From assembly GCF_024347575.1 (NCBI RefSeq), contig NZ_AP025505.1, forward strand, positions 186,001-250,000: a stretch of 64,000 bases of DNA, in the 5' to 3' direction. The notes beneath the pieces are model-generated. The model did no database searches, was not told the origin of the DNA, and saw only the letters and a list, made by a program, of their open reading frames with translations. The position numbers and the translations under genes are program-made. Source of the DNA: Vibrio pelagius (GTDB lineage Bacteria > Pseudomonadota > Gammaproteobacteria > Enterobacterales > Vibrionaceae). This document shows, piece by piece, positions 3,027-17,837 of this stretch (within the stretch, counting starts at the first letter, position 1; the number at the start of each line of letters is the position of its first letter).

Positions 3027-3045
3027 TTTGAAATTGCGTTTTATT
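3027..3045 (+). promoter_or_regulatory. Candidate KdgR operator (kduD/kdgR spacer, site 1)
   Basis: TTTGAAATTGCGTTTTATT matches 16 of 19 positions of the known KdgR consensus AATRAAAYRNYRTTTYATT (the N counted as a match). It is placed to control the kduD operon promoter. Confidence 0.6.
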
Positions 3046-3184: not shown

Positions 3185-3967
3185 ATGGAAAAATCAACTC
3201 AACCGGAAGCTGTATCGTCAGTATTAAAAGTGTTCAACATTCTCTCAGCGCTAGCTGACCAAAAAGAGATTGGTGTATCAGAACTTTCTCAACGCTTGAT
3301 GATGTCAAAGGCGACGACTTATCGTTTTTTGCAAACCATGAAGACACTCGGGTTTGTTGAGCAAGAAGGGGAAGCCGATAAATACTCCCTAACTCTAAAA
3401 TTGTTTGAGCTGGGCTCAAAAGCTCTAGAGCATGTCGATCTGGTTGATCTCGCCAATGCTGAAATGGCGAAAATCTCAAAGATCATCAATGAAACTGTTC
3501 ACTTAGGCTCCATTGACGAAGACTCTATCATCTATCTGCACAAGATAGACTCCAGTTACCATCTACGTATGCACTCACGCATTGGGCGTCGAAACCCGCT
3601 CTACAGCACAGCAATTGGTAAGGTATTGATGTCTCATATGGAAGACCAAGACGTGCGAGATCTTTTGGCTAATGTTGAATTTAAAAAGCACACACAGCGC
3701 ACGCATGAGAATGTAGACCAACTACTTGAAGAGTTAGACCTTGTTCGTGAGCAGCACTTTGGTGAAGACAATGAAGAGCAAGAACCAGGTTTGCGTTGTA
3801 TCGCCGTACCAATTTACGATCGTTTTGGTGATCCTATTGCAGCCATCTCCGTTTCGTTTCCTACTATTCGATTTGAAGAGAGCCGCAAGCGCGAGTACAT
3901 CGCTCTTCTCCACGCAGCTGGTCGCAATGTATCGGAGCACCTGGGCTACCACAATTACCCTGTCTAA
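3185..3967 (+). CDS. kdgR: KdgR, IclR-family repressor of uronate catabolism
   Basis: A 260-residue IclR-family regulator: N-terminal winged helix-turn-helix (about residues 12-75, with SELSQRLMMSKATTYRFLQ) and a C-terminal effector domain with SRIGRRNPLYSTAIGKVL and EDNEEQEPGLRCIAVP. These stretches match the enterobacterial KdgR pattern very closely, so orthology is likely. KdgR is released from DNA by 2-keto-3-deoxygluconate. Boxes fitting its consensus lie here and at 4023, 10222, 15598, 15944 and 16014, supporting a local regulon. Confidence 0.95.
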   Translation: MEKSTQPEAVSSVLKVFNILSALADQKEIGVSELSQRLMMSKATTYRFLQTMKTLGFVEQEGEADKYSLTLKLFELGSKALEHVDLVDLANAEMAKISKIINETVHLGSIDEDSIIYLHKIDSSYHLRMHSRIGRRNPLYSTAIGKVLMSHMEDQDVRDLLANVEFKKHTQRTHENVDQLLEELDLVREQHFGEDNEEQEPGLRCIAVPIYDRFGDPIAAISVSFPTIRFEESRKREYIALLHAAGRNVSEHLGYHNYPV

Positions 3968-3978
3968 AAGTAATAAAG

Positions 3979-4007
3979 AAAAAAGCAGCATTCGTGCTGC
4001 TTTTTTT
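3979..4007 (+). terminator. kdgR terminator
   Basis: Stem GCAGCA (3985-3990) and TGCTGC (3995-4000) with loop TTCG, followed by seven T. It has the classic rho-independent form. Confidence 0.85.
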
Positions 4008-4022
4008 ACCACCCAATAATTT

Positions 4023-4041
4023 AATGAAACACCGTTTCAAC
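4023..4041 (+). promoter_or_regulatory. Strong candidate KdgR operator upstream of the DUF294 gene
   Basis: AATGAAACACCGTTTCAAC matches about 17 of 19 KdgR consensus positions and contains the perfect inverted repeat TGAAAC-ACC-GTTTCA. It ends 11 bp before the ATG of the nucleotidyltransferase gene, so repression would be direct. Confidence 0.7.
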
Positions 4042-4052
4042 TAAGGATTTAT

Positions 4053-5921
4053 ATGGGCAATTCAGCTTCAAATAATATTTTCGACTTTTTGATTCATCTT
4101 GATCCCTTCGACCTTCTTCCAAGACAGGTAGTCAAATCACTGGCAAGCTCCGTAACGGTCAAATATCTCGCTAAGGGAGAATGTATTGAGTTTCACTCGA
4201 TGTGCCAAAAAAGGTATCTATATGTAATCCGAAAAGGTGCAATCGAACAGCGAACCCAAATTAATAAACTAAGGGCTCGTCTTGGAGAAGAGGATCAATT
4301 TGGGTTTACTTTTCTGGAACCACTCAAAGAAGCAGAAGATGGCTATCGAGCAGAAGCTATTGAAGACTCACTACTTTACTTGATACCTCACGCAAACATT
4401 CAAGAAACGTGCGAGCTGCACCCAGAGTTCAAAGATTACTTTGCCGCTACAGCAAAAACGAGATTGAACTCTGCAATACGTTCGATCGTCAATAAAGAAG
4501 AGAAAAGCCTGTTCTTCCGAACGGTTGGCGAAGTTGCCAGCGAAAACATCACTGTTTCTGACTATTGCGAATCCATCATGGACGTCGCTAAAGCCATGTG
4601 TGGCAAACGGCGCAGTTCGTGTGCCGTCGTACTAAAAGGGCGAGAAATCGTCGGCTTGGTTACCGATCGAGATATGACACAACACGTCGTCGCTCGAGGG
4701 GTAGACACCCAGCGCCCTATTCATGAAGTCATGACGCGCAATCCCATCTTGATTAACAGCGAAGATAAAGTAATTCAAGCGATTTCACTGATGCTGCAAT
4801 ACAACATTCGCTGCCTACCAGTCATTGCCAAGCACGAAGTGAAGGGCTTATTGACCACCACTCACCTAGTTCACAATCATCGAACGCAGTCGTTATTTTT
4901 AATTGAAAAGATCAAGTATGCGAACTCGATAAGTGATCTCGCGAATCTTCGAGACGAAAGGGAAACCATTTTCCAGGCCTTAGTCGAAAGTGGCGTGAGT
5001 GCCGAGATTCATGGCCAAGTGATGTCGATGATCATGGATGCGTTCAATAGACGAATAATTCAACTAACCGAAGAGGTGCTCGGTCCGCCGCCTTGTGACT
5101 ATGCATGGATGGTAGCTGGTTCACATGCGCGGAACGAAGTGCACATGCTATCGGATCAAGACAATGCTCTGGTTCTCGCGGAAGATGCCACTGAGGATGA
5201 CCGATTCTACTTCGCCTACTTTGCGATGCGCGTTTGTAATGGATTAGCGGCCGTGGGCTACCCTTTATGCAGCGGTAAATACATGGCCGCGACAGCCAAA
5301 TGGAATCAGAACGTCGGTCGCTGGAAGGACTACTACACGAAATGGGTGGCGAGTCCTGAGTACAACAAACTGCTTAGTATCAGTGTCTTTATGGAGATAC
5401 GCTGCGTCTACGGAAACGCGGAGCTAGTCGATACGCTTCAAAACCACCTGCACGAAACCATTCATGCAAATCCTCGCTTTATCCCAGCACTGACACGCGA
5501 TGCCATCGAAACGTCCCCCCCACTTGGCATTTTCAACAGTCTGGTTCTTGAGAAAAGCGGAGACAATACCAAATCACTCAATATCAAAAAGTTTGCCTTG
5601 AACCTAATTATCGACCTCGCTCGCATATACAGCCTATCAGCTGGAGGCTCTTTAACAGGCACGGAAGAGCGTTTTCGATATGCCGTCGAGCAAGGCACCT
5701 TGTCTCAAGACAGCTGCGATAACATTATTGGCGCTTACCGTTTTCTTATGCAGGTGCGATTTAGACACCAACTCAACGCGCAGCTTCGTGGTGATTCTCC
5801 TGACAACAATATACGTCCGGACGAGTTCAGCAGTTTTGAACGCAAACACCTTAAAGAAGCCTTCAAGATCATTAGCGAACTGCAAGACGTCGCTAAACTC
5901 AAGTTCATGAGTGGGTTCTAA
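4053..5921 (+). CDS. cNMP-binding/CBS/DUF294 nucleotidyltransferase signalling protein
   Basis: A 622-residue multidomain protein without membrane segments: cyclic-nucleotide-binding-like domain (about 10-140), paired CBS domains (about 155-275, with TDRDMTQHVVARG and EVMTRNP), a GlnD-like nucleotidyltransferase domain with GSHARNE at 356-362 and SDQDNAL at 367-373, and a C-terminal substrate-binding domain. The architecture is that of COG2905-type proteins. Family knowledge: such proteins often sit with an exonuclease gene beside acetate-type SSS symporters, and their substrate is unknown. Here the gene follows a strong KdgR-like operator in a locus with two SSS symporters. A role in controlling those symporters is inference. 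RBS AAGGA is at about 4043. Confidence 0.88.
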   Translation: MGNSASNNIFDFLIHLDPFDLLPRQVVKSLASSVTVKYLAKGECIEFHSMCQKRYLYVIRKGAIEQRTQINKLRARLGEEDQFGFTFLEPLKEAEDGYRAEAIEDSLLYLIPHANIQETCELHPEFKDYFAATAKTRLNSAIRSIVNKEEKSLFFRTVGEVASENITVSDYCESIMDVAKAMCGKRRSSCAVVLKGREIVGLVTDRDMTQHVVARGVDTQRPIHEVMTRNPILINSEDKVIQAISLMLQYNIRCLPVIAKHEVKGLLTTTHLVHNHRTQSLFLIEKIKYANSISDLANLRDERETIFQALVESGVSAEIHGQVMSMIMDAFNRRIIQLTEEVLGPPPCDYAWMVAGSHARNEVHMLSDQDNALVLAEDATEDDRFYFAYFAMRVCNGLAAVGYPLCSGKYMAATAKWNQNVGRWKDYYTKWVASPEYNKLLSISVFMEIRCVYGNAELVDTLQNHLHETIHANPRFIPALTRDAIETSPPLGIFNSLVLEKSGDNTKSLNIKKFALNLIIDLARIYSLSAGGSLTGTEERFRYAVEQGTLSQDSCDNIIGAYRFLMQVRFRHQLNAQLRGDSPDNNIRPDEFSSFERKHLKEAFKIISELQDVAKLKFMSGF

Positions 5922-5922
5922 C

Positions 5923-6645
5923 ATGCTGGCCAAAACGTTACATAAGCTATTTTCTAATGGCGACAACATCGAAGATTTGCACCAGTCCATGAGGGCCAAG
6001 CGTTGGCCATCTCGTGCACTAGAGCACTACTTTGCCCACCCGCTTCCCAATGCAGAGCGCCCAGTTTCCGAGCAACAGTTCGTCGCTCTCGATTTTGAAA
6101 CAACGGGGCTGGAACCAGACTCAGATAGAATCCTGTCTATTGGAACGGTGGAGTTGAGCTACGAAGAGATAGAACTAACCAGTGTCAGCGAAGTGATTTT
6201 GCGCCAAGATGTCACTATCCGACCGGAAAGCGCGGTCGTTCATGAAATTATGCCAATGCAAGTTCAAGAACAAGGAATTGAGGCTGAGCTTGCGCTCGAT
6301 AGCTTGATCGAGCATCTTGCAGGTAAAATTATCATCGCTCATAGTGCATGCATTGAATATAGCTTTTTGTCGTCGTATCTAAAAAGGCGCTACCAACTGC
6401 AAAAACTGCCGTGCTATATGATAGACACTCTATTGCTTGAGAAGCGATTTAGCTACTTGGGTAAGAATCGCGGCCATACCAGCTTCCAACTTGATGACCT
6501 GCGCCAACACTATAACCTTCCCGATTATCAAGCTCATTCAGCAGCCAGTGATGCACTCGGTTGCGCTGAGCTCTTTTTGGCACAAGTAAAAAGACTTAAA
6601 CTCTGCCATCGCCCACTCACCGACGTGATATATAAGCCTTGTTAA
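5923..6645 (+). CDS. DEDDh-family 3'-5' exonuclease (DnaQ-like)
   Basis: A 240-residue DnaQ-like exonuclease. ExoI motif ALDFETTGLEP carries the D and E pair (about D57 and E59), and ExoIII HSAASDA carries the histidine and aspartate (about 205 and 210). ExoII reads AHSACIEYSFL, with Glu where the classic Asp stands. The ATG at 5923, one base after the previous stop, was chosen over an in-frame GTG at 5911 that would overlap it. The tight spacing implies co-translation with the nucleotidyltransferase. Family knowledge: this pair recurs as a unit, perhaps acting on a nucleotide-modified product, but the true substrate is not known. Confidence 0.85.
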   Translation: MLAKTLHKLFSNGDNIEDLHQSMRAKRWPSRALEHYFAHPLPNAERPVSEQQFVALDFETTGLEPDSDRILSIGTVELSYEEIELTSVSEVILRQDVTIRPESAVVHEIMPMQVQEQGIEAELALDSLIEHLAGKIIIAHSACIEYSFLSSYLKRRYQLQKLPCYMIDTLLLEKRFSYLGKNRGHTSFQLDDLRQHYNLPDYQAHSAASDALGCAELFLAQVKRLKLCHRPLTDVIYKPC

Positions 6646-6680: not shown

Positions 6681-8245
6681 TCAAAGCCATGGCTATTGGA
6701 TTGTAGATCTTCCGATAGCTGTTTAAGCTCACTTGAGCTCAAAGAAAACTGTTCTATTCGACTCAAGTTTGCCTCTTGAATCTTGAGAAGTTGCTCAATA
6801 GAAAGATAAACCTGCTCAGAAATAGCCAGCTCAGTCTTTGTTGACCGTTTTAAGTCAGAAACAATGCTCTGAACGTCACTCGCACCTTGCTTCACTTGAC
6901 TAAAAATCACACCTACTTGTTCCGATTTCTCTTCGCTTTGAGAGATTTTTTCGAGAAGCGATCTCAATTCATTGGAAACATGTTCAGACTCCGACAAGAT
7001 ATGCGCGCTCATATTAGATATTTCTACCGTTGCATCGGATGTTCTGGCGGCAAGACTTCGCACTTCATCAGCAACGACAGCAAAGCCACGCCCCTGTTCG
7101 CCAGCTCTCGCGGCTTCGATCGCAGCGTTTAGGGCAAGCAAGTTTGTCTGTTCAGCGATGCCTTGGATCACCTCAACAACCCCGGTTATCTGTTCATACT
7201 TTGCTGCCAACAGGCCAAAGCTTTGTAGTGAACTATCAAGGCTAGTGCGAATGTCCTCGACAGAACCCTCCATCAGTTGAATAGCCTCTACTCCTTCTTC
7301 AGACAGTGATTGAGACTGCAAACTATTCGATTGTGCTTTATCAATGCCTGTATTGATTTCGTCTATACTCAGTTCAAGCGCTTTCATAGAATTGAGCGTA
7401 TCATCCGAAATCGAGCGTATTTGCCCTAGGCTTTGCGTCGTCGCAACAACATTTCGATCTAGACTGTCTGTAGACTGATTAACCATTGATGAAACCGAGG
7501 CGATTTTATCAACAAACTCTTTGAGGGAAGTTTGCATCTGGCCTACGGATTCTAAAATACTTCCCTGCGGAGCGGATTTCGTCACAGAGTGAGTTAACTG
7601 CCCATTTGCAATACGCTTCGTCAAAGAAACAACAACGCTTGGCTCTCCACCCACCGAGCGAAAAATACTGCGCGCAATAAGACTGATAATCAGCAACATT
7701 ACCGCTAGAATCCCACCACTGTAGATTAGAAGGCGCATCACGAGTTGTTGATAACTCTCTTCAACATCGTCCATGTAGATCCCAAGCCCCATAACCCATT
7801 TAAGCTCGGGAATCATGGTGATCGCACTCACCTTGGTCACCTTTTCCGACGAGTTAGGCTTACTCACTTCACCGATTACGTAATTGAACTCATTATCTTT
7901 AAGCAGATTTACATGGCGAGCGTAGGAGCTTTGAAACGTCCCCAGTTTTTCGCTACGTACATGCACGCGAGCAATGGCATTGTGATCATTCGCCCAAATG
8001 TAAGCATTTCCCAGACGATAGGTAGACAACACAGTAATTACACGCTGCTCAGCTTCTTCCGGAGAACGACTTTGTAAAATAGCATCTGATGCTTGTTTCT
8101 TTGCAAATGAAAGTAACGAAGCAACTTCATGCTTTTTAGTCTCAACCAATGACGTTTTGATTGAGTCCAAGCTTACAAAAACAATCAGCGCGATACCCAA
8201 CATGGCTGTTACCAACAGCAGTGCACCTCTTTTTATTAGTGTCAT
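6674..8245 (-). CDS. Methyl-accepting chemotaxis protein with a Cache sensor domain
   Basis: A 523-residue inner-membrane chemoreceptor: N-terminal membrane helix (about 7-26), periplasmic sCache_2-type sensor (about 30-165, with AYIWANDH and [15 protein letters not shown]), second membrane helix (about 170-192), HAMP-like linker, and a coiled-coil signalling domain with the conserved hairpin tip [20 protein letters not shown]. No C-terminal CheR pentapeptide is seen. Its position next to the KdgM porin and lyase genes suggests it senses oligouronates or monomers, which is inference. A strong terminator separates it from kdgM, so it is probably transcribed alone. Confidence 0.92.
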
Positions 8246-8257
8246 AATCCCTCACTA

Positions 8258-8291
8258 TAAAAATGGCCACACTAACAACCTAGTGTGGCCA
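8258..8291 (-). terminator. Terminator of the lyase-kdgM operon
   Basis: An 11-bp perfect stem, TGGCCACACTA (8264-8274) and TAGTGTGGCCA (8281-8291), followed on the minus strand by TTTTTATA. It lies between kdgM and the chemoreceptor gene. Confidence 0.85.
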
Positions 8292-8317
8292 AACGGACAG
8301 TCAATTACAGTAAACGC

Positions 8318-8992
8318 CTAGAAGCTATAAGTAATGCCGATACGGCTTCGAAGTTGACGATCGCTTGAAGAGCTCGAAACTGAAACATTGGCGAACTCCA
8401 CATATGGACGCCAGCTCCAGTCTTCGCCTTTGTAGCCAAGTTTGAAAAGTGCATCCCAATTGGTGTCGCCGTTATCAAAGAATACTTGGTCATCCAAACC
8501 TTTCTCGTAGTTCGCCTCTAGGCCAAACTGAAAACCGTTGTATTTGTAATCGAGGTTGGCCGTGACTTTGCTTTTTTGCTCGGCAGAGCGATCATCAGAG
8601 AAGTTACGGAACTCATGGCGGTAGCGAAGCTTAGTAACAACCCCTGAATCAAAAGAGTACTGAGCGCGAAGCTGAGGTTTATAGGTCACGTGACCAGGGA
8701 AGAAGGTAATTGGCATACCTGGAATCAGCATCCAATTATCATCAATTTTATATTTATAGCCGAAGTCAAATTCATTGCCTTTCGATTCCCATTCTGAAAA
8801 CGGCTTACCTTGCTGCATTGCTTCAACACCAAAGTACATATTTCCTACGCCCGCACCAAGTTTAACGCGGCTCGCATAAGTTTCACTTTCGTGTTTGTAT
8901 TCTTGACGGAAATCAAGAGATGCAGCAGAAACAGAGGCACTCGAAACTAATGCCAAAACCGTAATTGAAGCTATTTTATAAAACTTAGACAC
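8318..8992 (-). CDS. kdgM: KdgM-family oligouronate-specific outer membrane porin
   Basis: A 224-residue protein with signal peptide (about 1-23, ending ASVSA) and alternating beta-strand pattern ending in phenylalanine (ITYSF), as expected for a 12-stranded outer membrane barrel. The start SLDFRQEYKHES and repeated YKY/RYRHEFRNF strands fit the KdgM family, which lets acidic oligosaccharides across the outer membrane. It lies 14 bp downstream of the lyase gene, so both are probably one operon. The substrate could be oligogalacturonate, oligoalginate or oligoglucuronate. Confidence 0.9.
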   Translation of the reverse strand: MSKFYKIASITVLALVSSASVSAASLDFRQEYKHESETYASRVKLGAGVGNMYFGVEAMQQGKPFSEWESKGNEFDFGYKYKIDDNWMLIPGMPITFFPGHVTYKPQLRAQYSFDSGVVTKLRYRHEFRNFSDDRSAEQKSKVTANLDYKYNGFQFGLEANYEKGLDDQVFFDNGDTNWDALFKLGYKGEDWSWRPYVEFANVSVSSSSSDRQLRSRIGITYSF

Positions 8993-9006
8993 AGTATAAT
9001 TCCTTT

Positions 9007-10188
9007 TTATTTAAACAATAGATTAGCTACTTTTTTGCTATTTACCTTCTCTTTACTTAATTCAGAGATCGCATCGGTAAATAACGGCTCACCGTATGCT
9101 TTTTGCGCATAAAGTAAATTTACGAAAGCTTTAGAACCATCAAATCCTTTTAGTTCTTTGTATTGCCATTTATCAGGTTGATTGGCATGCTTTGCAATAT
9201 ATTGATAACCTTTCGCTAGAGAATGTTTATCAATTTCATAATTCCAAACATCAACACCGAGCTTATCTCCGAAGTGCCCTAGGTGATTGTAGGCTTCAAG
9301 ATTGAAGTTTGAATAATGCCAAGGACGCGTGCGTTCTAGCTCTCCATGCTGACGACCATTCATATCAAACTGACTACCAATTCGGCGCATTTGTGTGATT
9401 CTCAGACGCTGCTTAGCAATATCTTCGTTACCCACAAAGATGGCAAAGGCAGCGACTTGTGCGTCATACCATGTGCCATGATTGTTATGCCAATTGTCCT
9501 CTTCAAAACCATGATTACTGGTTAGCAACCAGTGATTAAAATCACTAAACCAATCAACCATAGCCTGATAATCTTGTGGGGTAAGCTGTTGTTTTAAAAT
9601 ATTGATACTATCTAAAACTGGTATCAGCAAGCGGCTATCAATAATGCCGATACCACGCCCATCAACAATTCCAGGTATCGCTTGTGCATGGTTTAAGTTT
9701 GGATTCATTCGTGTATTCGGGTCGACAAACCAGGCGATAAGCTGAGCTTTCGCTTTGTCAGCGTAAGCTTGATTATCAGTGAAGTAATAAGCAAGGCTCA
9801 AGTCTGTCACGTCTTTGGTAAAACGGATAAAGCGCTGTTTGTCCGTTGCTGCGCTTTTGGTCGCCATATTATATTCACCGTCGCGGCGGACATAAGGTAG
9901 ACCATCTTTGGTATCAGGGTTCGGCCACCAATAAGGTCCGAAGCTGAAATAGTCATGCTTGTCGCCACTCGCCGGTAATAACGTTTTATTAGTCACAGGA
10001 TCTATTGATGCATCCAATGCTTTATCAGCCTTTGCGATTAACTCGTCAATTGAATCTTGCTTCACCGTTACATTTTGCTTGTTATATTCAAGTGCGACTT
10101 CATCGTATGAGATGAAATCTATATTCCCAGCTATTGCCCCCCAAGAAAGAACAAGAGAAACAGCAATCATACTTTTCTTGATAATCAT
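9007..10188 (-). CDS. Secreted alginate-lyase-superfamily enzyme (PF05426; PL38/PL5-like)
   Basis: A 393-residue protein with a signal peptide (about 1-20) and no lipobox. Motifs of the PF05426 alpha-toroid lyases are clear: YWWPNP at 86-91, NNHGTWYD at 235-242 carrying the Asn/His pair, and RPWHYSNFNLEAY at about 288-300. The YWWPNP and NNHGTW forms resemble PL38 more than the PL5 AlgL type. PL38 contains alginate and glucuronan lyases, so the substrate is open. It probably acts in the periplasm or outside the cell, supplying oligomers to KdgM, which follows it in the operon. A KdgR-like box lies about 35 bp upstream of the start. Confidence 0.85.
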   Translation of the reverse strand: MIIKKSMIAVSLVLSWGAIAGNIDFISYDEVALEYNKQNVTVKQDSIDELIAKADKALDASIDPVTNKTLLPASGDKHDYFSFGPYWWPNPDTKDGLPYVRRDGEYNMATKSAATDKQRFIRFTKDVTDLSLAYYFTDNQAYADKAKAQLIAWFVDPNTRMNPNLNHAQAIPGIVDGRGIGIIDSRLLIPVLDSINILKQQLTPQDYQAMVDWFSDFNHWLLTSNHGFEEDNWHNNHGTWYDAQVAAFAIFVGNEDIAKQRLRITQMRRIGSQFDMNGRQHGELERTRPWHYSNFNLEAYNHLGHFGDKLGVDVWNYEIDKHSLAKGYQYIAKHANQPDKWQYKELKGFDGSKAFVNLLYAQKAYGEPLFTDAISELSKEKVNSKKVANLLFK

Positions 10189-10221
10189 AAAAACTCCTTA
10201 ATGAAATTAAATTCAATATTA

Positions 10222-10240
10222 ATTGAAACAACGGTTTAAA
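10222..10240 (-). promoter_or_regulatory. Candidate KdgR operator upstream of the PF05426 lyase
   Basis: ATTGAAACAACGGTTTAAA (read on the plus strand; the box is near-symmetric) keeps about 15 of 19 consensus positions, including GAAAC and ACG. It lies 34 bp before the lyase start codon. Confidence 0.5.
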
Positions 10241-10340
10241 AACAAGATCAAGATCATTTAATTACATAGATGTTATATGCACGCTAGTAATTGTGATTTT
10301 TATCAAACTTTTTAAATCTTATGAGTGAGGGTTATTAAAT

Positions 10341-10371
10341 AAAAAAGGAGCTCTCGATGAGCTCCTTTTTT
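10341..10371. terminator. Bidirectional terminator, formerly behind the beta-helix gene
   Basis: GGAGCTC (10347-10353) and GAGCTCC (10359-10365) with a 5-nt loop, flanked by A6 on the left and T6 on the right. It would end minus-strand transcripts of the beta-helix gene, but the IS3-family element now lies between the gene and this hairpin. Confidence 0.8.
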
Positions 10372-10433
10372 ATATTTAATTGACCCGTCCTAAATAAGGT
10401 TGACACTCCCCAAGCAGAAAATTGGAGAGTGTT

Positions 10434-10826
10434 ATGAAATCAATAACTAGACGAACTCAATGTGATTACTCCCTCGCTTTTAAATTGGATGTTGTTGATC
10501 AAGTCGAGCGAGGTGAACTGACTTACAAACAAGCACAAGACAAGTACGGCATACAAGGTTGTTCTACAGTATTAGTGTGGCTCCGAAAGCACGGTCGACT
10601 TGATTGGTCTGGGGGCACACCTCGATTCATGAAGAAAGGTTTACCTATGTCTGAATTCAATTCACCACCTACACCAGAGCAACGTATCAAAGAGTTAGAA
10701 AAGAAACTCGAGGATACCAAACTGAGGGCCGACTTCTTTGAAGAAGTAGTAAAAGTTATGGAACGAGACCATGGTGTCCGCGTCGTAAAAAAGCACAAAG
10801 GTGCGTCGTCCAAGAGCAAAACATAG
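10434..10826 (+). CDS. IS3-family transposase OrfA (helix-turn-helix subunit)
   Basis: 130 residues starting at the ATG at 10434, preceded by GGAG at 10424-10427. The N-terminal helix-turn-helix binds the IS ends (YSLAFKLDVVDQVE, then LTYKQAQDKYGIQG and STVLVWLRKHG). A C-terminal coiled coil follows (QRIKELEKKLEDTKLRADFFEEV). The frame ends at 10826, and orfB is read in the -1 frame. Confidence 0.92.
   Translation: MKSITRRTQCDYSLAFKLDVVDQVERGELTYKQAQDKYGIQGCSTVLVWLRKHGRLDWSGGTPRFMKKGLPMSEFNSPPTPEQRIKELEKKLEDTKLRADFFEEVVKVMERDHGVRVVKKHKGASSKSKT
10787..10793 (+). other. Programmed -1 ribosomal frameshift site (A AAA AAG)
   Basis: The heptamer A-AAA-AAG lies with zero-frame codons AAA (10788-10790) and AAG (10791-10793), exactly the X XXY YYZ phasing. 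The -1 frame is open from here into orfB, so a slip yields the full OrfAB transposase. Confidence 0.8.
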
Positions 10827-10837
10827 CTCAGCTCACG

Positions 10838-11638
10838 GTGACTAGATTTTGCCAAATCATCAATATATCTAGGCAAGCATATTATAAACAGTGTCTTATT
10901 GACGATCGTAACAGGCAGCGTGACAAAGCTCTTCTGAGCTTTGTTCGTGAAACTCGCATCAAACAGGCTCGAATAGGAACGAGAAAGCTTAAGTACATGA
11001 TGGAAAAAGCTGGAATGAAAGTAGGTCGGGATTATCTATTTTCTCTGCTTAAACATCATCGGCTGCTTGTGAAGGTTAAACGTGCTTACCATCGAACAAC
11101 GGATAGCCATCATAGGTTTTACTGCCACCCAAATAAAATAAAGGATGGCTTTAAGCCCGAAAGACCGGAACAGTTGTGGGTTGCTGATATTACTTACCTT
11201 CCAACCTATGAGGGAAACAGTTACGTCAGTCTTATCACTGATGCCTATTCCAGAAAGATCGTCGGATACAGCGTGGATGACAACATGCAGACGAAGGCCG
11301 TAAAACAAGCTTTTATAAGAGCTTTGAGAGAACGTCGAAATCAGGAAAGCTTAATCCATCACTCAGATAGAGGCTCACAGTACTGTTCAAAGGAGTACCA
11401 AGACTTACACTCTAGGCACAAGATCGTGTGTTCCATGACTGATGGATATGACTGCTATCAAAATGCCTTGGCAGAGAGAGTAAATGGTATTTTGAAAATG
11501 GAATACTTGTTGAAGAAACCTAAAGATGTTGCTCAGGCGAGAAAAATGGTCGCCGAGTCAGTAGAAATCTATAATCAGATGAGGCCACATACGGCCTTAA
11601 AATACAAAACGCCCGATGAAGTACATCGAGCGTTTTGA
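10838..11638 (+). CDS. IS3-family transposase OrfB (DDE integrase domain)
   Basis: The 266-codon open part from a GTG at 10838; the natural product is probably the OrfAB fusion made by the frameshift at 10787. An HTH_21-like N-terminus is followed by the rve catalytic core with the three acidic residues in WVADITYLP, IHHSDRGSQYCS and NALAERVNGILKMEYL. The end RPHTALKYKTPDEVH is typical of the family. Confidence 0.93.
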   Translation: MTRFCQIINISRQAYYKQCLIDDRNRQRDKALLSFVRETRIKQARIGTRKLKYMMEKAGMKVGRDYLFSLLKHHRLLVKVKRAYHRTTDSHHRFYCHPNKIKDGFKPERPEQLWVADITYLPTYEGNSYVSLITDAYSRKIVGYSVDDNMQTKAVKQAFIRALRERRNQESLIHHSDRGSQYCSKEYQDLHSRHKIVCSMTDGYDCYQNALAERVNGILKMEYLLKKPKDVAQARKMVAESVEIYNQMRPHTALKYKTPDEVHRAF

Positions 11639-11686: not shown

Positions 11687-13687
11687 TCAATAGGACCTAA
11701 ACTTAACATACTGACAATTATTATTTTCTGTCATTTTAATCAGCTTACCTGTAAGAGCATTGCTGCTCACATAGTTTGACGTCACGCTAATTGAGCCAGT
11801 ACCATCCACACTGGATAACGTACCTCTGAAGTCACAACTGCTGTTTGCATCACTATCCCAAACTTGTACCGTTTTCCCAGAGAGATCTCTATCAATCGCT
11901 ATACAATTGGCTTGAGAAAGGTCTATTTCCATTTGCTGCTTCCAACTATATTGGGTCACCGAATCACACCCCTCAGAAACCGGCGGATCGACCGGATCAA
12001 CAGGCTCTTCCGGATCTACACCTTCTGGTGGCCATGATCCGCCTGCAACAGTAACACCAGACTGCGGGATCTGCTGATGAACGCCCTCTGCCAATGTTTG
12101 ACTCCAAGTCGCTATTGGCTCCCCGTTGATATTCAGGTGTTTATATTGGCTACCATCCCAGTTGAGCGCGTACTCGACATCCGGTTCATCAAACAGCCCC
12201 CATCGAATAATGCTGTCACCCGAGTTCTTTGCTTTCTTCAGCGTGTTATTAACTAGGACGTTATTTGGTCCAGTTGGTCCTGACCACTTGCTTGCATGAT
12301 CGCCAGAACCGACCCAAATAGGTTGCCACGTTGCTCCAGACTCTGGCGCTCCATTTGACCAACTGCGATGCTCAAACGGCACTGCAATATAATTAGAACG
12401 AACCAAATTGTTACGCTCCCAGCCACCGTGGAAGTTCATATCAACATTCAGTGTATTGTTCTCAACGATATTTCCTGTTGCAGACCACTGTAGAGCAAGG
12501 TGTCGAATGTTTCGAATATCGTTATTGTGGATCCAGCTATTGTATAACTTTGAACCACGTACATAACCATTACCACCAGCACCCTTGTTCCATGAACCGT
12601 CGATAGTATTGTTGGAAATGGTGACTGCTTTAGCAAACTCACTAACAATAGGGTGCGAGCCAATCATGTCGATACGGACATTATCGACCCAGCCGTTATA
12701 CGCCCACTTGAGTATGATGCCGTGAATCGCATCTTGTGCACATACGTTCTCATAACGATACAAGACACCATTAGGGTTACTCTCCGAGAATTGGTTGCGG
12801 TTGTACCCTTCACAGTGACTACCTTCTATGTCCATAGTTAGAAAGAAATCTTGTAAACCAAAATTTTCTATTGCACGCACTGGCATAACACGGCTGTTAT
12901 AACCACCCTCATTGTTTAGCGGAATATCAAATTCAAGCGCGCCATCAAGGGTGACTGTATTACTGCTGGTATTTACCTCCGTTACTTTAAAAATCTGTGT
13001 GCGCATGTGGCCAGTTTTAATGTGACTAGCACTTCTTCTCGATTCCGGCACTTGTCCTTCATCCAAAAACGCTCGGTCAGTAGCGGCGCCAACATATATA
13101 AGATCACCCTGACTAAATTCGCCAGCTTTTCCTGATTCTAAGACAATTTTGGTATCACCCATTTTCGCCGGCTGTGCAAACTCAATGCTATGTTTCCAAT
13201 GAAAGTTAACACTCCCCTCGTAAGCAGGCTCTTTGGCATGTTTTTCTCGAGTCTCGACACGGAATACGCCAAAACCAGGCCAATATTTCTTATCAAAATC
13301 AGGCGCATTGCTGGCATCCACTCCGTAAGGGGACCAAGATTTGACGACAATTTGCGTACCCGTATCGGGATCGCTGCCCGCCCCTTTGATTACCACCCCT
13401 GACTTGTCGATATGGATTTCATCGCTCAGGTTGATAGTGCCCTTTGGCAGTACAATCAAAGTATTGTTACTCGTCGAGGCAGTAACCTCATTATCAATGA
13501 TGGCTTGCAGTGCTGCAGAATCATCGATCCCGTCATCTGCGATAATGCCATGGTCAACAGCATAAATAGTGTTTGGAAATGTCGTAGGTAACGTTGCACC
13601 TTGTTTATAACCTGGAGCAGAAAGACCAGGGGCACTATATAGAATAAGAGGTATAAGTATGGCGAGTGTGTTCACGTTCATTTTCAC
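11687..13687 (-). CDS. Secreted right-handed beta-helix protein, candidate polysaccharide lyase
   Basis: 666 residues with a signal peptide (about 1-23). The N-terminal pattern IYAVDHGIIADDGIDDSAALQ is that of the pectate-lyase-3 superfamily, followed by a long beta-helix with asparagine-rich turns (VTISNNTIDG, NIVENNTLN, NVLVNNTLKK). A linker rich in P, E, V and D (PEEPVDPVDPPVSEG) at about 555-570 joins a C-terminal domain of about 95 residues with four cysteines, probably a binding or sorting module. It lacks the chondroitinase-B/PL6 look, and I cannot place it in a named PL family. The uronate locus suggests uronan cleavage, which is inference. Confidence 0.75.
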   Translation of the reverse strand: MKMNVNTLAILIPLILYSAPGLSAPGYKQGATLPTTFPNTIYAVDHGIIADDGIDDSAALQAIIDNEVTASTSNNTLIVLPKGTINLSDEIHIDKSGVVIKGAGSDPDTGTQIVVKSWSPYGVDASNAPDFDKKYWPGFGVFRVETREKHAKEPAYEGSVNFHWKHSIEFAQPAKMGDTKIVLESGKAGEFSQGDLIYVGAATDRAFLDEGQVPESRRSASHIKTGHMRTQIFKVTEVNTSSNTVTLDGALEFDIPLNNEGGYNSRVMPVRAIENFGLQDFFLTMDIEGSHCEGYNRNQFSESNPNGVLYRYENVCAQDAIHGIILKWAYNGWVDNVRIDMIGSHPIVSEFAKAVTISNNTIDGSWNKGAGGNGYVRGSKLYNSWIHNNDIRNIRHLALQWSATGNIVENNTLNVDMNFHGGWERNNLVRSNYIAVPFEHRSWSNGAPESGATWQPIWVGSGDHASKWSGPTGPNNVLVNNTLKKAKNSGDSIIRWGLFDEPDVEYALNWDGSQYKHLNINGEPIATWSQTLAEGVHQQIPQSGVTVAGGSWPPEGVDPEEPVDPVDPPVSEGCDSVTQYSWKQQMEIDLSQANCIAIDRDLSGKTVQVWDSDANSSCDFRGTLSSVDGTGSISVTSNYVSSNALTGKLIKMTENNNCQYVKFRSY

Positions 13688-13788: not shown

Positions 13789-15555
13789 CTATGTAGCACT
13801 ACTTGCTGTTAGCTTATCCGCCTGTTTGGCACTCTTAAGAAGCAAACTACCTACGGTCACAATGACCGCACCACAGAAGACAAAGGCCATTCGTCCCCAG
13901 AATGGATTAGGGATAAGTACCATTAGTGTCACTAGAAGGCCAAATACAAGAATCAATTTACCTAGCATATTGCGTTGTTGACGATCTAGCTCGTCTTGAC
14001 CAGCTTCTTCTACAACTGGAGTCGCAACATCATTCCAGAACTCCGTCAGTTCAGACTTACGCTCACCCACTGGCTCTTTGTAGAATCGAGTTGTGAGGCA
14101 GAAGAAACCACCAGTGATGAATAGGTGACCCATAATGCCTAGTAGCACCTTAAGATCTTTCGCTTCACGACCGGTAAATGGTGTTTCTAGGTTCAGCCAG
14201 TTTGCCACCACATCAGCCGTAATCACAAAGCTAACTAGGTAAGAGACCACGATACCGACGGCCAGTGTTGCCCATGCAGCCCAATCTGGTGTCTTCTTAA
14301 TGAAGATACCGAAGAATAGTGGTACGAGAATTGGCATCTGAAGCAATGTACTCACGTACATCATGGCATCAAATAGGCTCAATCCACGAAGCGAGTTGAT
14401 AAACAGTGCGACGAGAATAATGAGACCACCAAAACACATAGTGACAATTTGGCTTACGCGCATCAGTTTTTTGTCGTCAGCCTTTTTATCAAGGATTGGC
14501 GCATAGAAGTTGCGAACAAAGATGCCAGAGTTGCGGTTAAGACCTGAATCCATTGACGACATGGTCGCTGCAAATACCGCAGACATAAGCAGGCCAACCA
14601 TACCAACAGGCATTGCGTTCTCTACGAACACTAGATATACCGCATCCGCAGCTTTTTTACCCAGTTCTGCAGCATGAACAGTAGCTGCATCTGGGTACAT
14701 GACTGCCGTTACCCAAGGTGGTAGGAACCAAATTGCGGGACCGATTAGCATAAGAACAAACGCCAGTAGTGCGGCTTTACGCGCATTGGTCGAGTCTTTC
14801 GCAGTTAGGAAACGATATGAGTCTTGCATGTTGTTGATGTTTTGAAGCTGTTTAACAAACATGAAGATGAACCATGCCACGAACAGTAGTGGATAATTCA
14901 TATCTGAACCCATAATTGAATCAGCGGGGAACTGCTCAATAAGGTTTGTTGGACCGCCAATCTTAACTAAAGCAGCAACGGCACAAACGACGGTGACCGC
15001 CATAATGACGACCATTTGCACAAAGTCGGACGCAACCACACCCCAAGCACCGCCAATTACAGAAATGAATAGAACGATAAGGCCGGTCACAACAATGGTT
15101 GTCTCGATGTCCACTTTAAATACCGCGCTTACGAAAAGCGCTAGACCGTTGAGCCAAATACCCGTGTAAACGATGCTGGTTGGCATGGTCGCCCAAGTAA
15201 ATACCTGTTCATTGGTGCCACCAAAGCGACGACGGACCCCCTCTATAGGGGTTACAACGCGCATTTGACGGAAACGGTAGGAGAAAAACAACCAAGAAAG
15301 TAGGAAGCCGAATGCGTTGGCCATAAAAACAACCATGATAGGAAAACCATCGGTAAAGGCTTTGCCTGCTGCTCCAGTGAACGTCCATGCACTGAATTGG
15401 GTCATAAAGGCTGTGGAGCCCACCATCCACCACAGCATTTTACCGCCGCCTCGGAAATAGTCGCTGGTGGAACTACCCGCAAAGCGTTTAAAGATGACGC
15501 CTATCGCTATCATGAAGATAAAGTAAACGCCCACGACGAGCATATCGACATTCAT
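13789..15555 (-). CDS. Sodium:solute symporter (SSS family), paralogue A
   Basis: 588 residues with about 13-14 hydrophobic segments, an inner-membrane Na+-coupled symporter of the SGLT/SSS type. Conserved stretches include DYFRGGGKMLWWMVGSTAF and TMSSMDSGLNRNSGIF. It is nearly the same length and sequence as the plus-strand gene at 16071; the two are divergent around a 515-bp spacer. Family knowledge: SSS symporters near alginate or pectin lyases import oligouronates or the unsaturated monomer. A KdgR-like box lies 43 bp upstream of its start. Confidence 0.9.
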   Translation of the reverse strand: MNVDMLVVGVYFIFMIAIGVIFKRFAGSSTSDYFRGGGKMLWWMVGSTAFMTQFSAWTFTGAAGKAFTDGFPIMVVFMANAFGFLLSWLFFSYRFRQMRVVTPIEGVRRRFGGTNEQVFTWATMPTSIVYTGIWLNGLALFVSAVFKVDIETTIVVTGLIVLFISVIGGAWGVVASDFVQMVVIMAVTVVCAVAALVKIGGPTNLIEQFPADSIMGSDMNYPLLFVAWFIFMFVKQLQNINNMQDSYRFLTAKDSTNARKAALLAFVLMLIGPAIWFLPPWVTAVMYPDAATVHAAELGKKAADAVYLVFVENAMPVGMVGLLMSAVFAATMSSMDSGLNRNSGIFVRNFYAPILDKKADDKKLMRVSQIVTMCFGGLIILVALFINSLRGLSLFDAMMYVSTLLQMPILVPLFFGIFIKKTPDWAAWATLAVGIVVSYLVSFVITADVVANWLNLETPFTGREAKDLKVLLGIMGHLFITGGFFCLTTRFYKEPVGERKSELTEFWNDVATPVVEEAGQDELDRQQRNMLGKLILVFGLLVTLMVLIPNPFWGRMAFVFCGAVIVTVGSLLLKSAKQADKLTASSAT

Positions 15556-15597: not shown

Positions 15598-15616
15598 TTC
15601 AAAACTCCGTTTCATT
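15598..15616 (-). promoter_or_regulatory. Candidate KdgR operator for symporter A
   Basis: On the minus strand AATGAAACGGAGTTTTGAA keeps the whole left half and the central TTT of the KdgR consensus, about 15 of 19 positions. It lies 43 bp before the start codon. Confidence 0.6.
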
Positions 15617-15943
15617 ATTTGGTAAATGACGTTTTTATAAAGCGCGTTTAGGTCATTATGTGACTTGTGTAACTAATTATTTCTGGTCGTGTTGTTTTAT
15701 GTTAACGCGGTCAAAGAATGTGCAACATGCACAACCAGGCGTTACTGATACAGTTGTAAAAAGGTCAAATAGGCGTCCACAAATGAGTCCGTACTGTGTA
15801 GTTAACGAGCAACATAAAAGAAAAGTACGAGTCTGTTACTGCCTATGTAATAACCACACCCAAGACTCATTGAGGGCAAAATTGGAGGATCTCTTTAAGT
15901 TAGATATAAACCATGAAAGAAAAAGCACCAATCCGAATAAAAA

Positions 15944-15962
15944 AATGAAAAACCGTTTCATT
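15944..15962 (+). promoter_or_regulatory. Best KdgR-like operator in the window (symporter B, distal)
   Basis: AATGAAAAACCGTTTCATT differs from AATRAAAYRNYRTTTYATT at one position only. It lies 109 bp before the start of the plus-strand symporter. Confidence 0.75.
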
Positions 15963-16013
15963 CATCACAAAAGCGCACAGTTTTTTTGGTAATCAACACC
16001 TATTTAAAGCAAT

Positions 16014-16032
16014 ATTGAACCATCGTTTTATT
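16014..16032 (+). promoter_or_regulatory. KdgR-like operator (symporter B, proximal)
   Basis: ATTGAACCATCGTTTTATT matches 17 of 19 consensus positions. Its start is 70 bp after that of the box at 15944, which would suit joint binding. It lies 39 bp before the ATG. Confidence 0.65.
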
Positions 16033-16070: not shown

Positions 16071-17837
16071 ATGAATATTGACATTATTGTTGTCGGTGTC
16101 TACTTCGTCTTCATGATCGCTGTAGGTGTCATATTCAAGCGTCTAGCAGGCAACTCAACCAGCGATTACTTTCGTGGGGGAGGCAAAATGCTGTGGTGGA
16201 TGGTGGGCTCCACAGCCTTTATGACCCAATTCAGTGCATGGACGTTCACTGGAGCAGCAGGCAAAGCCTTTACCGATGGTTTCCCTATCATGGTCATTTT
16301 CATGGCCAACGCATTCGGCTTCCTACTTTCTTGGTTGTTTTTCTCCTACCGTTTCCGTCAAATGCGCGTTGTAACCCCAGTAGAAGGTGTACGACGTCGA
16401 TTTGGCACGACAAACGAGCAAGTCTTTACTTGGGCAACCATGCCAACCAGCATCGTTTACACGGGTATTTGGCTCAACGGTCTAGCGCTATTCGTTAGTG
16501 CAGTATTCAAAATCGATATTGAGACAACCATTGTTGTGACCGGTCTGATTGTTCTGTTTATTTCCGTTATAGGCGGCTCTTGGGGTGTGGTTGCGTCCGA
16601 CTTTGTGCAAATGGTCGTCATTATGGCGGTCACCGTCGTGTGTGCCGTTGCAGCCCTTATAAAAATTGGAGGCCCGAGTAATCTAATTGAACAGTTCCCA
16701 GCAGACTCAATTATGGGTGCGAACATGAACTACCCGTTACTGTTCGTGGCATGGTTCATTTTCATGTTTGTTAAACAGCTTCAAAACATCAACAACATGC
16801 AAGACTCATACAGATTCTTGACGGCCAAAGACTCGACCAATGCGCGTAAAGCGGCGCTGCTAGCCTTCGTTCTTATGCTAATCGGTCCTGCGATTTGGTT
16901 CATGCCGCCATGGGTGACAGCGGTTCTTTACCCTGATGCTGCACTAGCCCACGCTGACGCGCTTGGCGGCAAAGCAGCAGATGCGGTTTATCTGGTATTC
17001 GTTGAACGTGTGATGCCTGTCGGTATGGTCGGTCTGCTTATGTCAGCGGTATTTGCGGCAACCATGTCGTCAATGGACTCAGGCCTTAATCGTAACGCGG
17101 GTGTTTTTGTTCGTAACTTCTACAGTCCAATCATCAACAAGAAAGCATCTGAGAAAAAACTGATGCGTGTCAGCCAGGGCGTCACCATGGTGTTTGGCGC
17201 TCTGATTATCGCGGTAGCTCTATTCATCAACTCGCTTCGTGGATTGAGCCTATTTGATGCCATGATGTACGTAAGTACATTGCTACAAATGCCTATCCTA
17301 GTTCCTCTGTTCTTCGGCATGTTCATTAAGAAGACACCAGATTGGGCAGCTTGGGCAACGCTAGCTGTCGGTATGGTGGTCTCTTACATGGTGAGCTTTG
17401 TCATCACACCAGATGTCATCGCGAACCTACTCGGTATCGAGGGCGGCTTCACCAGTCGCGAGGCATCAGACCTAACGGTAATGAATGGCATCATTGGTCA
17501 CCTTGTGTTCACTGGCGGTTTCTTCTGCCTAACCACTAAGTTCTACAAAGAGCCACAAGGCGAACGTAAAACAGAACTTAACGAGTTTTGGACTGATGTG
17601 GCAACCCCTGTTATCGAGGAAGAGGGACAAGATGCGGTCGACCGCCAGCAGCGCAGCATGCTTGGTAAGCTCATCTTAATCTTCGGTGTTTTGGTTGTCG
17701 CTATGGTACTGATACCAAATCCATTCTGGGGTCGCATGGCATTCTTGTTCTGTGGCGGCGTGGTACTAACCGTAGGCGCTTTACTGTTAAAAAGCGCCAA
17801 AGAGACCAAAGTGCTCAAGGTGCAAACTCAAAGTTAA
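16071..17837 (+). CDS. Sodium:solute symporter (SSS family), paralogue B
   Basis: 588 residues, same length as paralogue A and aligned without obvious gaps; differences cluster in short loops and the C-terminal tail. It has the same membrane layout and the same conserved TMSSMDSGLNRNAGVF stretch. The RBS GAGGT lies just before the ATG. Two KdgR-like boxes precede it. It is likely an importer of uronate oligomers or monomers. Long identical DNA stretches shared with paralogue A (for example around 16190-16260) point to recent duplication or gene conversion. Confidence 0.9.
   Translation: MNIDIIVVGVYFVFMIAVGVIFKRLAGNSTSDYFRGGGKMLWWMVGSTAFMTQFSAWTFTGAAGKAFTDGFPIMVIFMANAFGFLLSWLFFSYRFRQMRVVTPVEGVRRRFGTTNEQVFTWATMPTSIVYTGIWLNGLALFVSAVFKIDIETTIVVTGLIVLFISVIGGSWGVVASDFVQMVVIMAVTVVCAVAALIKIGGPSNLIEQFPADSIMGANMNYPLLFVAWFIFMFVKQLQNINNMQDSYRFLTAKDSTNARKAALLAFVLMLIGPAIWFMPPWVTAVLYPDAALAHADALGGKAADAVYLVFVERVMPVGMVGLLMSAVFAATMSSMDSGLNRNAGVFVRNFYSPIINKKASEKKLMRVSQGVTMVFGALIIAVALFINSLRGLSLFDAMMYVSTLLQMPILVPLFFGMFIKKTPDWAAWATLAVGMVVSYMVSFVITPDVIANLLGIEGGFTSREASDLTVMNGIIGHLVFTGGFFCLTTKFYKEPQGERKTELNEFWTDVATPVIEEEGQDAVDRQQRSMLGKLILIFGVLVVAMVLIPNPFWGRMAFLFCGGVVLTVGALLLKSAKETKVLKVQTQS

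Follow-up and report, generated by a model that had tools for sequence, protein, structure and literature searches.

What does a nucleotidyltransferase that is encoded together with an exonuclease do inside a bacterial uronate locus? The question is raised by a stretch of 64,000 nucleotides of Vibrio pelagius (contig NZ_AP025505.1, positions 186,001 to 250,000; hereafter the window), in which a KdgR-like operator precedes a gene for a 622-residue protein with a cyclic-nucleotide-binding (cNMP) fold, a CBS pair and a nucleotidyltransferase of the DUF294 type (DUF294 being a domain of unknown function), followed by a gene for a 240-residue exonuclease. An earlier note on this DNA, every coordinate of which matched the sequence when the window was re-read, had proposed that this gene pair adds and removes a nucleotide mark on a Na+/solute symporter (SSS) or a partner. 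We found a linkage between DUF294 and SSS genes across Pseudomonadota, and found that the two enzymes travel together. We suggest, with a probability of about 45%, that the pair switches SSS transporters, or a partner close to them, by reversible nucleotidylation, the exonuclease serving as eraser. The two genes are as follows.

4053 to 5921, + strand: 622-residue cNMP-fold/CBS-pair/DUF294 nucleotidyltransferase/DUF294_C protein, proposed writer (PF00571, PF03445, PF10335)
5923 to 6645, + strand: DnaQ-like 3'-5' exonuclease, 240 residues, proposed eraser (PF00929, 64.9 bits)

Linkage of DUF294 genes to SSS genes

A link across genomes, on which the earlier note had staked its proposal beforehand, was looked for in 160 Pseudomonadota genomes drawn evenly, 58 of which gave clear DUF294 matches (E < 1e-30). 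Around the matches outside the V. pelagius genome we took 80 test regions of up to 20 kb each (3 of the 83 foreign matches lay within 2.4 kb of another match and did not form separate regions; the genome's own four were left out), together with 40 control regions situated 120 kb away on the same contigs. Controls come from just 40 of the 80 test places because the contig had to allow the 120-kb step; at G098:C4 two controls overlap each other, and so do the corresponding test regions. The link is present: an SSS gene occurs in at least 47 of the 80 test regions and in 0 of the 40 controls among the matches listed (Fisher p 1e-11), and at least 42 of 57 genomes have such a gene in at least one region. 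A local profile alone detected SSS genes in 38 of the 80 regions, missing the ActP type, while the strongest Pfam matches brought the count to at least 47; controls were checked both ways. With the local profile 76 DUF294 open reading frames (ORFs) were seen in 74 regions, the other 6 of the 80 giving none. On this comparison of genomes the linkage is well supported.

Within Vibrionaceae, the DUF294 gene of the pair was searched for in 101 genomes, the E-value limits for "uronate-type" genes having been chosen by us before the results were seen. Of these genomes, 27 carry a uronate-clade DUF294 gene (E up to 1e-170) and 24 a uronate-type SSS gene (E up to 1e-120), and 23 of the 24 SSS-bearing genomes have both (phi 0.87; p 1e-17, uncorrected for shared ancestry); among the four with the DUF294 gene alone, three (G175, G202, G256) match at just 44-45% identity. 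A uronate SSS gene lies within 15 kb of 24 of the 32 uronate-clade DUF294 genes. The contrast between partners, not the p-values, is the point of this evidence: phi with the same DUF294 gene was 0.44 for kdgR, 0.33 for kduD, 0.38 for a PL17-like lyase, 0.50 for KdgM (38 of 56 matching genomes kept at a best E up to 1e-15, 18 weaker ones dropped) and 0.58 for PL7. Four kdgR-positive genomes lack the DUF294 gene, and the symporter is missing in all four; among KdgM-positive genomes the DUF294 gene occurs in 19 of 19 with the symporter versus 2 of 19 without it. We therefore rejected both a link that follows the regulator (0.44 versus 0.87 for SSS) and one that follows uronate degradation in general (0.33-0.58 versus 0.87).

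These figures bear on whether the pair is only a hitch-hiker, sharing catabolic islands with SSS genes but having no functional tie to transport. The uronate and acetate loci that hold both kinds of gene may indeed move as one, and 33 of the 80 regions show no SSS gene among the matches listed. Against this, the uronate DUF294 gene tracks the symporter more closely than it tracks kdgR, kduD, KdgM or either lyase, an SSS gene lies within 1 kb of 27 of the 76 DUF294 ORFs, and the neighbouring symporters belong to different classes (VC_2705-type in 7 and ActP-type in 3 of the ten typed by NCBIfam); we hold hitch-hiking to be very improbable.

In a tree of 98 proteins (quick method, supported by the Shimodaira-Hasegawa-like approximate likelihood ratio test, SH-aLRT, alone; SSS labels given to surveyed and own-genome rows, not to named loci), the uronate type is one group of 28 rows (SH-aLRT 100, stem 1.32). 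It splits into 14 rows that include the window (11 kdgR-linked) and 14 others, the latter with uronate-type neighbours in 9 of 10 named loci (none at L026). Locus L020 is absent from the tree because its DUF294 frame is broken in the assembly.

The pair as a unit, and its fused and predicted membrane-anchored forms

An exonuclease gene follows each of the four DUF294 genes of the V. pelagius genome, the DUF294 gene in 24 of 24 relatives from named genomes and, on the same strand within 700 bp, 60 of the 76 surveyed DUF294 ORFs, one of them fused. At the level of gene order this shows the nucleotidyltransferase-exonuclease pair to be a unit; a local curiosity is ruled out by the conserved cluster in relatives. 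The fusion (L108:9258-11375, - strand, genome G012) is a 705-residue ORF that joins the exonuclease, a CBS pair, DUF294 and DUF294_C and adjoins an SSS gene. All four families occur together in 120 of 120 among the matches listed (of 3637, the first being the same protein), and the named bearers are mostly Hyphomicrobiales. The confident model of the fused protein (predicted local distance difference test, pLDDT, 89; predicted template modelling score, pTM, 0.88) has halves that match DNA polymerase III epsilon and GlnE/DrrA.

A further form is represented by 14 of the 60 partner exonucleases, which are long (465-760 residues) and in which, in 14 of 14, hydropathy indicates two N-terminal transmembrane-like helices ahead of a C-terminal RNase_T domain (ORF L111:6688-8817 and those of L033, L035, L040, L067, L093, L094, L097, L098, L100, L101, L103, L106 and L107). 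In the six that were scanned, a PAS match was found in four (one exceeding the cut-off, one equal to it, two short of it), a HisKA-like stretch that fell short of its cut-off in three, and neither in two. DNA or RNA repair would hardly explain an exonuclease that senses, sits in the membrane and is encoded next to a symporter gene, whereas a membrane-protein target would readily do so. Some of these proteins have a histidine-kinase-like layout with the nuclease at the end, and many Magnetococcales copies carry the depositor annotation "histidine kinase".

The transferase and the exonuclease

The 622-residue protein is divided as follows.

4071 to 4481, + strand: cyclic-nucleotide-binding fold, residues 7-143
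4506 to 4883, + strand: CBS pair, residues 152-277
4872 to 5912, + strand: nucleotidyltransferase and helical substrate domain, residues 274-620
5118 to 5162, + strand: catalytic motif G356-S357-x2-R360-x-E362-x5-D368-Q369-D370

With PF03445 and PF10335 above the cut-off and CBS upstream (142, 137 and 50.7 bits), it has the predicted domain content of the cNMP/CBS/DUF294 signalling proteins, a class that we take to be the COG2905 type. The CBS pair is likely an adenine-nucleotide sensor; in the cNMP-fold domain the alignment revealed no conserved phosphate-binding Glu/Arg of the canonical kind. All 63 rows of the survey alignment share the G, S, R, D, Q and D of the catalytic motif; in a second alignment (A3, 65 rows) S357 and D368 are kept at 90% or more and the others of these six are invariant. 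Residue 448 is Glu in 28 of 28 uronate-clade proteins versus Asp in 70 of 70 other DUF294 proteins, alongside further changes in the transferase that are fixed in the clade (H358, H364, L366); we suspect Glu448 to be the third metal ligand of the transferase.

In fold comparison the transferase and helical domains match GlnE and DrrA, which modify proteins, and the GlnE match extends over about 300 residues, taking in the C-terminal helical domain and the overall arrangement. The predicted fold of this part is that of a protein nucleotidyltransferase of the GlnD/GlnE type. This relation rests on the fold comparison because a sequence search of solved structures with the 622-residue protein gave mainly CBS-domain matches (36 sequences, E up to 0.1); no HD family was among the Pfam matches of either window protein at E 0.001. 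The same GlnE match, whose acceptor is a protein, argues against a second-messenger pair, in which the transporter would be gated by a signal, a small nucleotide or a short oligonucleotide, that the transferase makes and the exonuclease degrades. The gene pairing would be the same, CBS and cNMP-fold sensors would suit a synthase, and exonucleases of DnaQ-like fold degrade short oligonucleotides; on balance we consider this improbable.

The 240-residue partner carries a PF00929 domain (64.9 bits, cut-off 24, scanned from codon 5932), and a sequence search of solved structures found one PolC-type exonuclease at E up to 1e-6. The DEDDh motif consists of the five catalytic residues D, E, D, H and D. 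The label "DEDDh" given by the earlier note holds for D57, E59, H205, D210 and the family, but at the third position Asp is replaced by Glu145, a substitution found in 27 of the 64 aligned rows; four of the five residues are kept in 62-63 of the 64 rows, and the fifth is Asp or Glu in 63. The partner has the DnaQ/RNase T fold of 3'-5' exonucleases, and the pol-beta superfamily includes RNA-tailing enzymes, so the pair might instead be an RNA tail switch: a certain RNA (symporter mRNA, small RNA or tRNA) would be tailed at its 3' end by the transferase and trimmed by the exonuclease, setting transporter synthesis. We judge this unlikely.

Conservation of both active sites bears on a further explanation, a non-enzymatic regulator that binds a nucleotide and docks on the symporter as GlnK does on AmtB, its catalysis vestigial and the exonuclease having a separate job. 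PII does control AmtB by binding, and modification is dispensable there (PMC4285133). A vestigial enzyme would hardly keep its motif identical in 63 of 63 rows, nor its partner four residues in 62-63 of 64 rows with Asp or Glu as the fifth in 63, and the two enzymes occur fused; such a docking role seems to us a poor bet.

Probable control by KdgR

The regulatory elements and the genes that they adjoin are listed below.

3029 to 3043, no strand: KdgR-like site between kduD and kdgR (2 mismatches)
3185 to 3967, + strand: kdgR, IclR-family repressor of uronate catabolism (NF011671 equivalog, 443 bits, cut-off 275; IclR_C and HTH_IclR)
3979 to 4006, + strand: predicted intrinsic terminator of kdgR (12-pair stem, listed on the - strand, with the T run read on the + strand)
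4023 to 4041, no strand: KdgR operator-like palindrome AATGAAACACCGTTTCAAC, core TGAAACaccGTTTCA, a perfect palindrome, at 4025-4039
9007 to 10188: alginate lyase gene, with a KdgR-like site upstream
10224 to 10238, no strand: KdgR-like site upstream of the alginate lyase gene (2 mismatches)
13789 to 15555, - strand: uronate-type SSS symporter 1 (PF00474)
15600 to 16030, no strand: three KdgR-like sites between the divergent symporter genes (at 15600, 15946 and 16016; 2, 1 and 2 mismatches)
16071 to 17837, + strand: uronate-type SSS symporter 2 (PF00474 above cut-off; TIGR00813 180.5 bits, cut-off 184)

The order is kdgR, hairpin, operator-like site, 11 nucleotides, the 622-codon gene, one base and the exonuclease gene; the hairpin is terminator-like and would set kdgR apart from the pair's own promoter region. 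The exact palindrome TGAAACNNNGTTTCA occurs once in the window, at the pair's operator. With up to two mismatches allowed there are 13 KdgR-like sites versus 4.6 expected; of the 12 others, five precede kduD/kdgR, the alginate lyase gene and the two symporter genes, which are divergent, while the seven elsewhere may be due to chance. From this placement the pair sits in an apparent KdgR uronate regulon, KdgR being, from work on Dickeya, a repressor relieved by 2-keto-3-deoxygluconate (KDG) (PMC8688573).

Among the 24 named-genome relatives, kdgR stands directly upstream of the DUF294 gene in 11 (Vibrio records and Aliagarivorans taiwanensis), and a site with at most two mismatches lies just upstream of the DUF294 gene in 11 of these 11, the eleventh (L020, with its broken frame) having been scored separately from the other 10. 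When the 12 spacers of the window and these relatives are aligned, two blocks are conserved besides the start codon, the terminator and the operator; selection on the operator-like site is well supported by this alignment. With a kdgR orthologue and a conserved KdgR-like promoter site, the pair looks like a member of the KdgR regulon. In one relative, L012 (7453-12579; deposited under the name Citrobacter amalonaticus S646), kdgR found no match; the pair and an SSS gene of 57% identity are divergently oriented, and two one-mismatch KdgR-like sites lie between them, although in this stretch two looser sites arise in 31 of 100 shuffles and could be chance. It looks like a transfer from Vibrionales or a mislabelled genome. 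No KdgR-like site was found within 300 nt at the remaining 12 of the 24 loci. The recruitment into a uronate regulon that the earlier note had claimed therefore stands, but not as an event special to this genome, as it is shared by several Vibrio species and Aliagarivorans; and the two SSS symporters ascribed to the regulon are about 8 kb off, in units of their own.

Other pairs and neighbouring genes

Besides the window, the V. pelagius genome holds DUF294 loci L007, L006 and L005, and an SSS gene lies within 10 kb of the window, L007 and L006 pairs. L007 is a second alginate locus with a PL7 lyase, a KdgM porin and an SSS gene; KdgR control of this PL7-linked pair (L003/L007) was rejected, there being no site upstream. 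At L006 (2807-12381) the pair is directly upstream of an acs-like gene, which from its start we take to be acs, and near an SSS gene and a 1155-residue ORF that may be a CrbS-like SSS-histidine kinase; this is probably the acetate version of the module. The L005 pair (8091-10711), conserved and next to what we take to be aspC/serC-like genes, may differ in role, and related DUF294 proteins recur in the tree in other surveyed Gammaproteobacteria.

In the window an IS3-type transposase ORF (10838-11638) separates the alginate lyase gene from one that is pectate-lyase-like, a sign of locus mobility. The 666-residue protein encoded at 11687-13687, adjoining SSS symporter 1, has a short pectate-lyase/epimerase-like match alone (PF12708, 29 bits) and is possibly an uncharacterised lyase.

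Discussion

How would a nucleotidylation switch of this kind work? Without uronate, KdgR would silence the pair and, by similar sites, also the symporters, kduD and the alginate lyase; build-up of KDG would allow the pair to be made. The CBS pair and the cNMP-fold domain would read the level of adenine nucleotide or of a metabolite, and the GlnE-like transferase would put a nucleoside monophosphate on the cytoplasmic face of the symporter or on a partner near it, and so slow uptake whenever uronate comes in faster than it is metabolised. By hydrolysing the phosphodiester, the exonuclease encoded alongside would restore transport, the part played in GlnD by the HD domain. We infer the chemistry, the target and the eraser role; our confidence is high in the genomic facts and moderate in the mechanism. 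A nucleotide mark on the transporter is put forward as a hypothesis that the protein-nucleotidyltransferase fold, the kept catalytic residues and the natural fusion all fit. Snake venom phosphodiesterase takes adenosine monophosphate (AMP) off Tyr (PMC3612183), RNase Z, a nuclease, is a deAMPylase (PMC12663964), and SSS import matters for alginate growth in Vibrio sp. C42 (PMC13390454).

Several observations weigh against this proposal. (i) The survey p-values are too small because the genomes are related, and the 33 regions without a listed SSS gene have to be accounted for. (ii) Sixteen of the 76 DUF294 ORFs, some near contig ends, have no same-strand exonuclease within 700 bp. (iii) The symporters of the window stand about 8 kb from the pair in separate units, L005 has no SSS gene nearby, and contig C2 carries two uronate-type SSS genes with no DUF294 gene in their vicinity. 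(iv) The domain arrangement of the window protein is unsure, because its model (pLDDT 81) reached a pTM of 0.60. (v) The exoribonuclease RNase T showed no deAMPylation in vitro or in cells (PMC12663964), so removal of the mark is not a general property of such nucleases. (vi) The single published deletion that came to light, that of pflu5625 in Pseudomonas fluorescens, gave no acetate phenotype (PMC5715377), a result that still allows a role in shifts but gives no support.

Beyond uronates, and more doubtfully, the pairs may form a widespread, unrecognised class of transport control in Pseudomonadota, in which a GlnE-like writer is dedicated to Na+/solute symporters and a DnaQ-type exonuclease, taken over from work on nucleic acids, acts as its eraser. 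This eraser would be small and soluble, fused (mostly in Hyphomicrobiales) or provided with two predicted transmembrane helices, in some lineages with a PAS sensor and the exonuclease in the kinase's place, and each copy would answer to the regulator that serves its substrate, KdgR in the uronate case here and CrbS/R in the acetate case of P. fluorescens. If true, SSS transporters would be under reversible covalent control comparable to that of the ammonium channel, and the annotations "DNA polymerase III epsilon" and "histidine kinase" would in some cases hide exonucleases that erase a protein mark. With a pair, a fused form and a clear class of partner at hand, the question is directly testable with two proteins and one symporter.

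Comparison with known systems

The nearest described counterpart is Pflu5625 of P. fluorescens, a cAMP-binding/CBS/nucleotidyltransferase protein of the CrbS/R acetate regulon (PMC5715377). It has the same domain description (compared by description alone), is co-regulated with the SSS symporter ActP by a carbon-source regulator, and nucleotidylation has already been suggested for it (PMC5715377); it differs in that the regulator and substrate are CrbR and acetate rather than KdgR and uronate, and neither "exonuclease" nor "dnaQ" appears in the main text of that paper. Vibrio alginate loci (KdgM, ToaA-type SSS, oligo-alginate lyases) share the regulator KdgR and the same kinds of neighbouring gene; the cited passages on them propose no function for a DUF294-exonuclease pair. 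A Vibrio alginate paper names a pol III epsilon subunit in a figure legend. Among the open-licence papers searched, DUF294 and a symporter are mentioned together in one, the pertinent line being a table footnote to an operon in Bacilli that combines a DUF294 gene with dnaQ. In this literature we found no paper stating the link of SSS, nucleotidyltransferase and exonuclease.

GlnE and DrrA/SidM have 11-13% identity to the window protein, and the matched chains cover residues 274-622 alone, not the CBS or cNMP-fold parts; in GlnE the eraser is a second transferase domain (PMC12663964). In GlnD, the transferase writes uridine monophosphate on PII, a separate HD domain removes it, and PII gates AmtB (PMC4285133). 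The likeness lies in a writer of the nucleotidyltransferase superfamily, ligand sensing, a separate phosphodiesterase domain and a position upstream of a membrane transporter. GlnD, however, has its HD-domain eraser in the same chain and senses through ACT domains, whereas the proposed eraser of the window is a separate DnaQ-type exonuclease and the sensors are CBS and cNMP-fold domains. Reversible protein nucleotidylation itself being already known, the system would be a variant of it.

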